From Thermoflexales bacterium (GTDB taxonomy: Bacteria; Chloroflexota; Anaerolineae; J036; Brachytrichaceae), in assembly GCA_019694215.1 (NCBI GenBank), contig JAIBCK010000022.1, forward strand, positions 1 to 41,610: a DNA stretch of 41,610 bases, given 5' to 3'. The position numbers and the translations under genes are program-made. This document shows, piece after piece, positions 422 through 39,945 of this stretch. Within the stretch, counting starts at the first letter, position 1. Each line of letters starts with the position of its first letter. The notes under the pieces were generated by a model that was not told where the DNA came from, made no database searches, and was given only the letters and a program-made list of their open reading frames with translations.

Positions 422-1063
422 TCACTTGGTATAGAGGTCGCCCTTTCCTGGGAATAGTTCAGCCTTATCGAGCCTGTCGAATCGGAAACACAGCAGTTTC
501 TCCGCGATGCAAATGTCGGCCAGCCGCTTCGTGCACATGACCACGTAGCGTGAATAGTTCACATCGCGGAACAGGTCTGACCCATCCCAGGTACCCGGGA
601 CCAGCACGGTTTTGCTCACATGTATCGTTATCTTTCGCCGATAGCGTTTGTGTTCCTCACACCATCGCTCTGGAATGAGCCCTTTCGCCTCCAGGTCTAC
701 GGCGCACTTTCCGCGTGGTTCGATCCGCCAGTAGGTGGGTGGCGTGACGCCACGCAGGAGCTTGGGCTTCGCAATCCGTACGGTGACCCGGTACTGGTCG
801 AAGTTGGTGATGCCGTGTCGCTTCCAGGTCTCGACGGCCCGATCCGAAAGAATGAAGTAGGGCACGTGTCCACAGCCCAGAATGTCGGGATACTTGCTTC
901 CCTGCCCCACCACGACGTCGAAGCCGCCAGGCGTTTCCGCACCGTCATCGCCGCAGATTTCGCATTGCGGCCGCAGCGCGAAATCGGTCCAGAGGATCGT
1001 ATTCGCCCAGGCGTATCGATTTAGATAGGTTTGATTGTTCCTTACGATAAAGAAGGTGTCCAT
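422..1063 (-). CDS. Double-CXXCG-like (SitI6-type) putative immunity protein
   Basis: Putative cytoplasmic immunity protein of 213 aa. The start is ATG at 1063 because it is preceded by an AGGAG box with optimal spacing; the longer open frame upstream lacks one. Visible marks are CEIC near residue 37, a central GHVPYFILSDRAVETWKRHG segment, an IEPRGKCAVDLEAKG segment, a second degenerate Cys site (WCEEHKR), and a C-terminal part with S(R)YVV and TKRLAD. This order (first CxxC, lead-in to an IEPRG-like strand, second Cys site, short C-terminal strand) matches my knowledge of the myxobacterial double-CXXCG family, which includes SitI6 immunity proteins. The second CxxC is not intact here. It lies directly downstream of a toxin-tip-like remnant (1071-1313), whose stop overlaps this gene's Shine-Dalgarno region, as expected for a toxin-immunity pair. 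Family assignment is moderate; immunity function is inferred. Confidence 0.6.
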   Translation of the reverse strand: MDTFFIVRNNQTYLNRYAWANTILWTDFALRPQCEICGDDGAETPGGFDVVVGQGSKYPDILGCGHVPYFILSDRAVETWKRHGITNFDQYRVTVRIAKPKLLRGVTPPTYWRIEPRGKCAVDLEAKGLIPERWCEEHKRYRRKITIHVSKTVLVPGTWDGSDLFRDVNYSRYVVMCTKRLADICIAEKLLCFRFDRLDKAELFPGKGDLYTK

Positions 1064-1070
1064 TTCGCTC

Positions 1071-1313
1071 CTACTGGGATGGATACAGACCGCTATTTCG
1101 AAGTCGCCGCAAGAAATCCAGGACATCCTGGGCCGTGGCTTTCTGATGTAGATCAATCCACGCTTCCCAAGCGTTCTGATAGGCACGCGACCAGCGCTGA
1201 TGGACGCTCGAGTCGACCCGTCGACCCACGTGTAAGTCGGCCCCGGGATGAGCGCGTCCGGCGATCTCCTCGCGTGGAGGACCCGCCGCGCAGGCGGTCG
1301 CTCGCCAGCTCTG
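1071..1313 (-). pseudogene. Headless C-terminal fragment of a polymorphic toxin (SitA6/RHS-tip-like)
   Basis: Between the HEAT gene stop (1314-1316) and the immunity gene lies an 80-codon open stretch in the HEAT gene's own frame, ending in TAG at 1071-1073. It reads ...GRAHPGADLHVGRRVDSSVHQ-RWSRAYQNAWEAWID-LHQKATAQDVLDFLRRL... The pattern V-(D/E)-S-V-H, then W-N/x-AW-x-x-(W/F)-ID, then A-T-A-x-(D/E)-(V/I)-L resembles the C-terminus of SitA6-type lipoprotein toxins and related RHS tips, which sit directly before double-CXXCG immunity genes. No ATG or ribosome-binding site is seen, so it is probably a decapitated remnant. Read-through of the HEAT stop could in principle still express it. Confidence 0.5.
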
Positions 1314-2768
1314 TCACCGCTGGGGAGGATTGTCTTGCGCACGCCGCTTCCGCATGGTCTCCAGCGCAGCGCGCGCATCCTTCACGACCCCCTCATCGTC
1401 GTGCGTCAGCAGTGACCGTAGCACCCCTTCCACCGACTCTCCACCCAACCTGCCCAACGTTGGGATCACGAACTGGCTTGCGCCGACATCTGTGGCGAGC
1501 GCGTCTTGCAGGATCGCCAAGAGCGTCGGAACCGCCTCAACCGCTCCAAGGTCTCCCAGCGCGTGGATCGCCGCAACCTGTGTATAGTATTCATTTTCAT
1601 GATCATCGTATAGCGCAATCGGCCGATCTGCGGCTCGGATGAGCGCCGGAATCGCCTCCCTGGCGCCCATGGCACCAAGCGCGTATGCGACGACACTGTT
1701 TCGCGTATGCCCATGCGATGACAAACGGTCGATCAGAATCGGTGCAATGGTAGAACCCAACTCAACAAGTAGTGATGCGCGGCCCGCGTCCCATTTGTGG
1801 GTTCCATCCAGAATCTCGATGGCACGATTCCGGATTTGCTCGGGATTGCGGGTCGAGATTGCAATTGCGTTCCTGAACCGTTCGTGCAGCCACTCCAACA
1901 TGTGTGGCTCATTCTCCAATTGGATGGCATACCATTCACCAGTCGCGTGCTCCCGCCCACGCCACATGAGGATGAGCGAGTCGCGGAGGCGGAAGAACTC
2001 ATCACCAGTTGCTGACGTCCAGCGCCGCCCCCTGAGCGCAACACTGCCTCCGCAACTCGAGCGCGGCGTGTCAGTCAGCACGAAAGCGGCATACTGCCCG
2101 TTCGACAAGACGGCACCAAAGCCAAAATCCTTGGCGCGCATGTTCGCATGGTAGCAAAGATACAGCGACCGCTCCTCGATTGCTGCCCCTTCGGCTTCGA
2201 GCTTCAGAAGTTCGAAGTAGGGCCAAACCTGATAGGTGCTTCTCTGCTGTACGCCGCATTCCAGCCCCTCCAATGCCAACTTCGCCTGCTTTGCGAGTAC
2301 GCCGTTGGTGGTGTTCATGCTCCTGACAGATTCCGCCGCTTCGGTCGCGCCCATCTCCACGATGGTACGAATCACGAACCAGGCGAGGGTCGGATCCTTC
2401 TCCAGGCCGATTTCCAGTTGTTCCAGGAGCACCGGGAGGGCTTCACGGTCCTTTAGTGTGCCCAGCGCTTGGATCGCCTCGATCTGGGCAGAGAATGTGT
2501 CGGAATCCGCGTAGTTTCGGTCAGGCCATCGGCGTGCTTCCTCGCGCAGCATCGGAATCGCCGCGCGATAGCCCATTTCACCAAGGACCTTGGCTGCGAA
2601 TGCACGCCTCGCAGCGAAGCGGCTGCCGAGTGCCCGAACCAGAAGCTCGCCCGCCGTGTCGTTGTTCTCCCAAAATGCAACCCATGCCCAGGCATAGCGA
2701 ATACCTCCGCCTTTGCGCGGTGCTCGATGCACGATCGGAGCCAATTGGCGAACAAAGTTGTACGTCAT
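1314..2768 (-). CDS. HEAT-repeat protein, possible immunity or scaffold protein of the RHS locus
   Basis: A 484-aa soluble protein. HEAT-like helical hairpins are seen in the N-terminal part (AKVLGEMGYRAAIPMLREEA; AIQALGTLKDREALPVLLEQL) and in the C-terminal part (VAYALGAMGAREAIPALIRA; AIHALGDLGAVEAVPTLLAI; VIPTLGRLGGESVEGVLRSL). A different, roughly 150-residue domain is inserted between (about 190-330) with a conserved-looking WYAIQLENEP segment. HEAT proteins are interaction scaffolds; no catalytic motif is visible. Its ATG overlaps the stop of the RHS fragment as ATGA, and no Shine-Dalgarno sequence is seen, so translation looks coupled to that fragment. Position right after an RHS C-terminus suggests an immunity gene, but this is only positional. 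A generic HEAT protein is the alternative. Confidence 0.8.
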   Translation of the reverse strand: MTYNFVRQLAPIVHRAPRKGGGIRYAWAWVAFWENNDTAGELLVRALGSRFAARRAFAAKVLGEMGYRAAIPMLREEARRWPDRNYADSDTFSAQIEAIQALGTLKDREALPVLLEQLEIGLEKDPTLAWFVIRTIVEMGATEAAESVRSMNTTNGVLAKQAKLALEGLECGVQQRSTYQVWPYFELLKLEAEGAAIEERSLYLCYHANMRAKDFGFGAVLSNGQYAAFVLTDTPRSSCGGSVALRGRRWTSATGDEFFRLRDSLILMWRGREHATGEWYAIQLENEPHMLEWLHERFRNAIAISTRNPEQIRNRAIEILDGTHKWDAGRASLLVELGSTIAPILIDRLSSHGHTRNSVVAYALGAMGAREAIPALIRAADRPIALYDDHENEYYTQVAAIHALGDLGAVEAVPTLLAILQDALATDVGASQFVIPTLGRLGGESVEGVLRSLLTHDDEGVVKDARAALETMRKRRAQDNPPQR

Positions 2769-3071
2769 TTCGACAATTTGGCCAGCTCCTTCATGGCCGC
2801 GACCAATTGGTCGGTGAGTAGCAACCGCAAATTATCGTAGTTGGGAAGTGACGGGTCAAGCCCAATTGAGCCAATTATGGGCACAACCGTATCCGCGCTG
2901 ACGAAGCGTCCCCGGGCCGGCGAGTAAGCGCGCGCCTTGTAGTCCATGAGCGAGCCAACGTAGCCGGTCGGTCGGCATCGCGCCGCTCGCCCAACGAATC
3001 TCGCCATAAACCCTATGGCGCGTCTCGGCCACCACTGCCCCGCTCGCGTTTTGTCTCACCGCATCCGGCAC
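2765..3071 (-). pseudogene. RHS-repeat core fragment, frameshifted, toxin tip lost
   Basis: Two minus-strand frames share one RHS C-terminal core. The upstream frame reads DAVRQNASGAVVAETRHRVY then GEIRWASGAMPTD. The downstream frame reads GYVGSLMDYKARAYSPARGR then FVSADTVVP. In intact RHS proteins these are continuous (ETRH.pYGE.RW.sG..PTD, then YTGQR, then GLMDYKAR.YsP.lGRF.S.DT). The frame changes near 2970, with part of the middle missing. A TAG closes the upstream frame just before 3071, so the long N-terminal RHS barrel is gone. After the core only about 35 residues remain before TGA at 2765-2767, too few for a typical toxin domain. The stop overlaps the HEAT gene start. Confidence 0.8.
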
Positions 3072-3109: not shown

Positions 3110-3760
3110 TCACTTGAAGGTCTTGTCAACATATTGAATGTCACGGTAGCTTCCGGACCATGCGACAAAGGTCTCGACGTCATAGCCCACTGTGTTTGCG
3201 AGGACAAGCTGCCGATTGTATTCTTCCAACGTTGGGCTCGGCTTGTCCAGACTGATTCCAAGGACATCGGCATACTCCCAAATTCGCTTTCTACCCCTAA
3301 TATAGACAACTGTGGTCATTCCCTTTTGAGGCTGAACAAAATCCACACTTGTGTATGTGGCGTCGGGCGCTGAATGATAGCTTGCAGCGTAACCCTCCGA
3401 TATGCCCAGACATCTGTGCACCTTTGATATGGTTGGCGCATTGTGTGTCCAACCCACTAATACTCGCTCGCTCACTTCCTCCCTGCTGAAACTCATGTGG
3501 TATTCCCAATTGTCAACATTCCAGGTCAAGAAAAACCCAGGAAAGGCCCGGTGCCATTTGACTTCCCTGGCTCTCTCACCAAAGGTCGTCGTGACCCATT
3601 CCCGAGCCTGTATCTCCCCTTGTATTTCACCATACTGCCACGTCAGAATCTTAGAATCAATGACCGTGTTGCATGGCCCATAATTCGAATCAAGGGCCGT
3701 ACAACCCGTCACAAGAACAGCAAAGAATATGGCAATTGCCAGGGTAGCACGCGATTGCAT
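3110..3760 (-). CDS. Hypothetical lipoprotein
   Basis: A 216-aa protein. The start is supported by an AGGAG box 6 nt upstream. The N-terminus is a classical lipoprotein signal: MQSR, a hydrophobic stretch, then lipobox LVTGC with Cys20. The mature part has no recognisable domain; it is rich in Tyr, Trp and Thr with beta-strand-like alternation (TYTSVDFVQP, TTVVYIRGRKRIWEYADVLG). It should be anchored on the outer face of the cytoplasmic membrane. Lower GC than most of the window places it in the same island as the RHS remnant. It may share a transcript with the downstream genes, since only about 40 nt separate it from the RHS fragment. Function unknown. Confidence 0.75.
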   Translation of the reverse strand: MQSRATLAIAIFFAVLVTGCTALDSNYGPCNTVIDSKILTWQYGEIQGEIQAREWVTTTFGERAREVKWHRAFPGFFLTWNVDNWEYHMSFSREEVSERVLVGWTHNAPTISKVHRCLGISEGYAASYHSAPDATYTSVDFVQPQKGMTTVVYIRGRKRIWEYADVLGISLDKPSPTLEEYNRQLVLANTVGYDVETFVAWSGSYRDIQYVDKTFK

Positions 3761-38448: not shown

Positions 38449-39087
38449 TCAGGGCAGGTCCAGCGGCGGATTGATCGCGCCGCTGCCGGCACGGGCAATC
38501 ATCGGCATGAATTGGCGCGGCGTCAGCGGGATGGGTGTGCGGGTCGGCGTCGCCGTCGGGGTCCGTGTCGGCGTCGGCGTCGTGGTCGGCGTTGGGGTCG
38601 GGGTTGCGGTGGGCGTCCTCGTTGGCGTTGCCGTCGGGGTGCGCGTCGGCGTCGCCGTTGGCGTGTGCGTCGGGGTCGCGGTGGGGGTCCGGGTCGGCGT
38701 CATTGTCGGGGTCGCGGTCGGCGTGTTCGTCGGCGTGGCCGTGGGCGTCCGGGTCGGCGTGTTCGTCGGCGTCGCGGTCGGTGTGTTTGTCGGCGTCGCG
38801 GTCGGCGTGTTCGTCGACGTGTTCGTCGGCGTCGCGGTCGGGGTGCGTGTCGGCGTGTTTGTCGACGTCGCGGTTGGCGTGTTCGTCGACGTGGCTGTCG
38901 GCGGGTTGATCGGCGTGTCCGTTGGCGTCGGCGTCAGAATGGGCGAGTCGATCGGTGAGATCAGGTGGATGCCGTGCGGCAACTCGGGCGGAAGCGCCGC
39001 CAGGCCCAGATCATGGGCACTCAGGAGCAATAGCCAGGCTGCCAGGAAAACCAGTACGGCTGGTGCAAGAAAACGCAGGTGTCGCAT
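38449..39087 (-). CDS. Secreted Thr/Pro-repeat protein with no globular domain (copy 1)
   Basis: A 212-aa protein. Start ATG 39087 behind GGAGG; the frame reaches 39138 without support. Signal peptide with [19 protein letters not shown], then about 130 residues of [11 protein letters not shown] repeats, then a short end [20 protein letters not shown]. There is no room for an enzyme domain. Thr density suggests an extended, possibly O-glycosylated stalk. The C-terminal FMPMIAR resembles the ends of the paralog next door and of the pentaheme cytochrome. It is paralogous to 39241-39945 in its signal peptide (LG.AALP). Thr/Pro repeats could hide a sequencing-related length uncertainty. Confidence 0.7.
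38505..38930 (-). repeat. Low-complexity GTCGGCGT-type repeats encoding the Thr/Pro stalk
   Basis: Short imperfect repeats with GTCGGCGT/GTCGGGGT recur in 6-, 18- and 24-nt spacing. They are in frame with the T/P protein and are not a CRISPR array. Confidence 0.7.
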
Positions 39088-39240: not shown

Positions 39241-39945
39241 TCAGCGGACGAGAAGTGGAAGATAGGCGCTGTAGATCGAGCCGCCATACACCACCGGGAG
39301 ATACGCCATGGCTGACAAACTCGGTGGTACGGCGGTCGGCGTTGCCGTCGGCAATGGCGTGACGCTCCGCGTGGGCGTTGGACTCTGGGTCGGCGTCGGC
39401 GTCACCGTGACGAAGCCCGTCGGCAGAAGCGTGGGCGTTGGACTCTGAGTCGGCGTCGGCGTCACGGTCAGGAAGCCCGTGGGCACCGGCGTGTTGGTCG
39501 CGCTCGGCGTGGGCGTCGGCGGCAGCGTGCCCGCTGTCGGCGTCGGTGTCACCGTGACGAAGCCCGTTGGCACTGGCGTGTTGGTCGCGCTCGGCGTGGG
39601 CGTCGGCGGCAGCGTGCCCGCCGTCGGCATTGGCGTGTTGGTCGCGCTCGGCGTGGGCGTCGGCGGCAGCGTGCCTGCTGTCGGCGTCGGTGTCACCGTG
39701 ACAAAGCCGGTCGGGATCGCGGTGGGAGTCGCACTCGAGGTCGGCGTCGGCGGCAATACGAACGGGGTCGGTGTAGCCGTCAGCGCCGGGCTCGATGTTG
39801 CGGTGTCGGTGGGGGTCGGGAGCGGCGAATCCATCATGCCATCCACCGGAAGCGCCGCCTGGCCCAGCTCATTGACGCCCAACGTCAACGCCCAGGCAGC
39901 GATGACGCCAATCAGGCTGGGGAAGAAATACCGTGTCAGACGCAT
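39241..39945 (-). CDS. Secreted Thr/Pro-repeat protein with no globular domain (copy 2)
   Basis: A 234-aa protein: signal peptide MRLTRYFFPSLIGVIAAWAL then TLGVNELGQAALP, about 160 residues of repeats whose unit is roughly PTPTAGTLPPTPTPSATNTP with inserted VPTGFVTV, and a C-terminal segment AMAYLPVVYGGSIYSAYLPLLVR split as two YLP motifs. GGAG lies 11 nt before the ATG. It ends exactly with YLPLLVR. As in copy 1 there is only leader, stalk and end tag. The 126-aa membrane protein gene is 48 nt upstream, so the genes may be in one transcript. Confidence 0.72.
   Translation of the reverse strand: MRLTRYFFPSLIGVIAAWALTLGVNELGQAALPVDGMMDSPLPTPTDTATSSPALTATPTPFVLPPTPTSSATPTAIPTGFVTVTPTPTAGTLPPTPTPSATNTPMPTAGTLPPTPTPSATNTPVPTGFVTVTPTPTAGTLPPTPTPSATNTPVPTGFLTVTPTPTQSPTPTLLPTGFVTVTPTPTQSPTPTRSVTPLPTATPTAVPPSLSAMAYLPVVYGGSIYSAYLPLLVR
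39358..39720 (-). repeat. Long tandem-like repeats within Thr/Pro protein copy 2
   Basis: Blocks of about 48-87 nt recur, for example the block around GTTGGTCGCGCTCGGCGTG (near 39494, 39581, 39638) and the flanking GTCACCGTGACGAAGCCCG (near 39402, 39548). Near identity between copies suggests recent duplication. Confidence 0.7.

Follow-up and report, generated by a model that had tools for sequence, protein, structure and literature searches.

Toxin tips of Rhs proteins are replaceable modules: incoming tips displace older ones, which can give rise to arrays of displaced tips (PMC2935791). In CDI and Rhs loci, orphan tips have been described that have no start codon and are followed by working immunity genes (PMC3150448). 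For SitA6 toxins, the immunity partner is encoded by double-CXXCG genes, and the double-CXXCG proteins are in turn linked with Imm11 in a common clan (CL0767; PMC12077181). In Myxococcus, the SitA6 toxins that are accompanied by double-CXXCG immunity genes are lipoproteins (PMC8546572, PMC12077181).

Here, we describe a related arrangement at the end of a contig from a Thermoflexales bacterium. This contig end coincides with position 1 of the window, by which we mean the whole 41,610-nucleotide stretch of DNA that was analysed. On the minus strand, the gene for a HEAT-repeat protein, an open frame of 80 codons and a complete gene for a protein of 213 residues follow each other, with a piece of an Rhs core at the upstream side (Table 1). 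An earlier note on this DNA had read the 80-codon frame as the remains of a decapitated toxin in front of its immunity gene, and the frame is indeed present, including all the residues quoted there. With a probability of roughly 85%, we consider this to be a decayed Rhs-type locus that holds an orphan polymorphic-toxin module, the toxin half having been lost and the immunity gene kept. It resembles the orphan rhs-CT/rhsI and cdiA-CT/cdiI modules (PMC3150448, PMC2935791) in its toxin fragment without a proper start and its intact immunity gene, with broken core fragments, possibly of the same gene, in the neighborhood. It differs from them in that truncation has reached the toxin domain and in that an unrelated HEAT gene lies in between.

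Table 1. Features of the locus, in the direction of reading on the minus strand (positions in the window)
Feature	Position	Strand	Basis or detail
Rhs core fragment with an unrelated 37-aa tail	2765..3007	minus	TIGR03696, E 2.5e-4; motif SLMDYKARAYSPARGRFVSADTVVP at 2879-2953
HEAT-repeat protein gene, 484 aa	1314..2768	minus	Pfam HEAT_2, 4.4e-21
80-codon open frame	1313-1071	minus	codons 1313-1074, TAG stop 1073-1071
27 open codons between HEAT stop and tip remnant	1233..1313	minus	without similarity to tips
SitA6/DUF2380-type toxin tip, C-terminal remnant, ~53 codons	1074..1232	minus	profile of class tips, 22-24 bits
AGGAG ribosome-binding site of the immunity gene	1068..1072	minus	read directly in CAGTAGGAGCGAAATG
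Complete immunity-type gene, 213 aa, Imm11/double-CXXCG clan	422..1063	minus	profile and predicted fold

The toxin origin of the 80-codon frame was recognized with a profile built from five intact tips that occur in other genomes of the class (G065, G033, G143, G575 and G626). Three of these tips pass the DUF2380 cut-off or reach it; the window sequence was excluded from the profile. The frame scores 22.7 bits, compared to 10.0 bits for the best of 5000 shuffles, and its scores on leave-one-out profiles range from 14.8 bits, the value for one of them, to 24.6 bits. For comparison, G065, which diverges most among the true tips, reaches 19.2 bits with its matching C-terminal part, and the window frame 18.8 bits on the same profile. 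At 41-53 residues, the matched part is short; the profile match itself covers residues 33-73. This part has the C-terminal pattern that is common to SitA6/DUF2380 tips (H...W...Y...W..W/F......AT..e.l.f...L). The resemblance to the C-termini of SitA6 and Rhs tips that had been proposed earlier thus holds for codons ~28-80, but not for codons 1-27, which score below zero (-2.1 bits).

No curated family reports this similarity directly. The remnant lies below every curated cut-off, and hmmscan against SitA6/DUF2380 (TIGR02269, PF09533) and the other Pfam and NCBIfam models returned no useful match, even at E <= 10, so that the link to SitA6/DUF2380 runs through the relatives in the class. A single-sequence search of 99 related genomes with the remnant gave a few weak matches (G065:C228 at E 0.006; further ones at L012-L014 and L016). 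The first of these, G065:C228, was also found independently by the Pfam model DUF2380 (PF09533) at E 2e-5; the frame read there encodes a DUF2380 tip, matches TIGR02269, the ‘SitA6 family polymorphic toxin lipoprotein’, and is directly followed by an immunity gene of the clan. Weak PF09533 matches at G042 and G491 were discarded, as they are located in unrelated proteins or frames, and a tblastn search of plasmids with the remnant gave no match.

All five relatives open the conserved region with an HH motif. This motif is absent from the remnant, whose similarity begins after the motif's place, and its product would therefore not be a working nuclease. Compared to a SitA6/DUF2380 toxin, only the last ~53 residues are left, without the HH end, an escort or Rhs part, or a proper start. 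As judged from its sequence, the remnant is a leftover of a SitA6/DUF2380 tip rather than a working toxin, and with the HH end and everything upstream missing, the description as a decapitated toxin is apt.

The neighboring 213-aa protein is, by profile and predicted fold, a member of the Imm11/double-CXXCG clan (CL0767) and not of some unrelated cysteine-rich family. It scores 36.9 bits against a clan profile built from seven proteins that were found through family searches, whereas the best shuffle reaches 6.2 bits. Its predicted structure (pTM 0.70, mean pLDDT 63) has one strong match in the PDB, MXAN_0049 (6a4c; Foldseek E 2.3e-5), the Imm11 prototype. Through this predicted fold, the comparison with MXAN_0049 gives a VIA Z score of 11.0 over 165 residues with an rmsd of 4.3, while the next best structure reaches a Z score of 2.1; in sequence, the two proteins are just 13-14% identical. 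Furthermore, the 213-aa protein has the overall layout and the WDGSDLF-type motif (here TWDGSDLF) that are common to the genes behind the tips of the class and that, like the profile match, connect it to Imm11 (PF07791) and double-CXXCG/SitI6 (PF09535, TIGR02264). The earlier assignment as a double-CXXCG immunity protein was accordingly right about the clan, but not about the cysteines: instead of two CXXCG motifs, the protein contains a single CXXCG (CEICG at residues 34-38), accompanied by one CXXH (CEEH at residues 135-138), which makes it a clan member but, strictly speaking, not a double-CXXCG protein. Several of its relatives carry one or no CXXC.

Simpler searches do not recover this relationship. 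With hmmscan, the 213-aa protein has no useful match in Pfam and NCBIfam, including the Imm11 and double-CXXCG models, even at E <= 10; phmmer against PDB sequences returned unrelated proteins only; tblastn against plasmids gave no match; and single-sequence searches of 99 related genomes gave weak matches at most, the gene having no relative in its family beyond one doubtful match.

The position of the two elements relative to each other is that of the family. In all DUF2380-type tips that we read in the class (5/5), a clan immunity gene follows directly, at spacings between an overlap of ~20 nt and a gap of ~15 nt. Here, the immunity ATG lies 7 nt past the stop codon of the remnant, directly behind the nuclease-tip coding region, and the AGGAG site, 4 nt before this ATG, overlaps that stop codon. 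Two of the class loci show additional features. At L018:1144-2800, an Rhs core end lies behind the immunity gene of the G143 tip, and nearly the same AGLDTAICIAAG start as in the first tip comes after it. This direct repeat suggests that a cassette was duplicated or displaced. At L019:75-1188, the immunity partner of a DUF2380 tip shows a weak match to Imm11 and lacks a CXXC motif; the pairing of toxin and immunity families is therefore looser here than the one known from Myxococcus.

The Rhs core fragment lies 1.6 kb upstream of the tip remnant on the same strand, with the HEAT gene, whose start it overlaps, in between. Over 28 residues, the motif of this fragment shares 64% identity with the Rhs core that neighbors the intact G143 tip (E 9e-8). 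It is the only trace of Rhs that we found in this 96% complete genome, in which no full Rhs gene was detected. The fragment appears to be frameshifted. A second frame on the minus strand (2856-3071) reads SGAVVAETRHRVYGEIRWASGAMPTDR and, by eye, resembles the portion of the Rhs core that immediately precedes the motif; it has no family match in Pfam or NCBIfam. The HEAT gene has no relatives at E <= 1e-12 among 78 related genomes; it is an accessory gene and may represent another immunity or cassette gene. Given the Rhs scrap, and a HEAT gene and a 213-aa gene without clear relatives, the locus is probably an acquired, partly decayed patch. At the other end of the window, long GC-rich tandem repeats (38541-38928 and 39369-39755) with units of 12 to 144 bases contain Val-Gly-rich frames.

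These surroundings also bear on the kind of protein to which the tip once belonged. It could have been a solitary SitA-type lipoprotein, as in myxobacteria, instead of an Rhs protein: the SitA6 toxins of Myxococcus are lipoproteins, and upstream of the Rhs fragment there is a frame of 216 residues (3110-3760, minus strand; G+C ~0.5) with a lipoprotein-like signal (LVTGC). We consider this unlikely, since the tips of the class relatives follow Rhs cores wherever the upstream part is visible (at least two of the five, G033 and G626), since an Rhs core scrap is present in this very locus, and since the lipoprotein-like frame matches no family in Pfam or NCBIfam.

The boundaries of the remnant within its frame can be drawn fairly closely. 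After the TGA stop of the HEAT gene (1316-1314), the phase of that gene stays open for 80 further codons, filling the gap to the 213-aa gene. At the local G+C, ~9% of random 80-codon stretches are open, so that the openness itself is unremarkable and the argument is carried by similarity and position. The G+C of the first 27 codons is even and high across the codon positions (0.78/0.74/0.70), unlike that of the remaining codons. Together with their score below zero on the tip profile, this sets the remnant proper at ~1232-1074 and makes the first 27 codons probably a junction or unrelated DNA. A degraded HH region in these codons was considered, but it amounts to a few identities by eye in a gapless alignment, to which the profile lends no support. 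Shortly after the similarity begins, GTCGACCC occurs twice in direct succession (1212-1227), which could mark the junction at which the toxin was cut or be due to chance.

It had also been claimed that the frame lacks a start codon. In fact, a GTG at 1229 opens a frame of 52 codons almost exactly where the tip similarity begins, although no good ribosome site was seen before it, so that the claim is correct with regard to a proper start, but not to the letter. This coincidence, and the fact that the frame is in phase with the HEAT gene and separated from it by nothing but a TGA followed by a C, would fit a remnant that is still made, either as a peptide from this GTG or, by readthrough of the TGA, as a HEAT protein whose tip-like C-terminal extension has acquired a new function, for example in the folding or binding of the immunity protein. 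We regard this as improbable: agreement in phase is expected in one of three cases by chance, the 27 codons in between have a position-wise G+C that looks non-coding and match nothing, the GTG has no clear ribosome site, and a HEAT-tip fusion was not found in any relative. The more specific proposal that the toxin tail has been kept, as a TGA-separated HEAT extension or as a 52-aa peptide, and serves the immunity protein as a partner or decoy without toxicity is likewise improbable. Finally, there is very little to recommend chance similarity of mere spacer DNA before an ordinary immunity-like gene: the match is short and no curated model finds it, but none of the shuffles and no other frame of the window comes near its score, and it sits exactly where the family places a tip.

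We thus return to the orphan toxin module as the best explanation of the locus. On this view, a longer delivery gene, which was most likely an Rhs gene, would once have carried a SitA6/DUF2380 nuclease tip with the accompanying immunity gene at its 3' end, and this very tip may have been joined to the Rhs core of which the scrap is left. Cassette exchange and later loss would then have eliminated the delivery part together with the toxin half that carried the HH motif, so that ~53 codons remain. Being whole and having its own ribosome site over the stop codon of the dead toxin, the immunity gene presumably can still be translated from a message that enters through the HEAT gene. Its product would bind and block incoming toxins of the same type from neighbors, and protection of this kind is its likely remaining function. 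The loss of the toxin half with retention of the immunity gene is a known phenomenon, and the locus is an ordinary leftover of toxin-cassette exchange.

A remnant of this kind would escape automatic annotation. The present case illustrates that a toxin remnant that is too short for curated models can be recognized via its immunity neighbor and its relatives in the class. It also adds a divergent immunity protein between Imm11 and double-CXXCG, in a genome without a close relative that carries this protein. The locus leaves the current understanding unchanged and agrees with the notion that orphan immunity genes are retained by bacteria when the toxin is lost.
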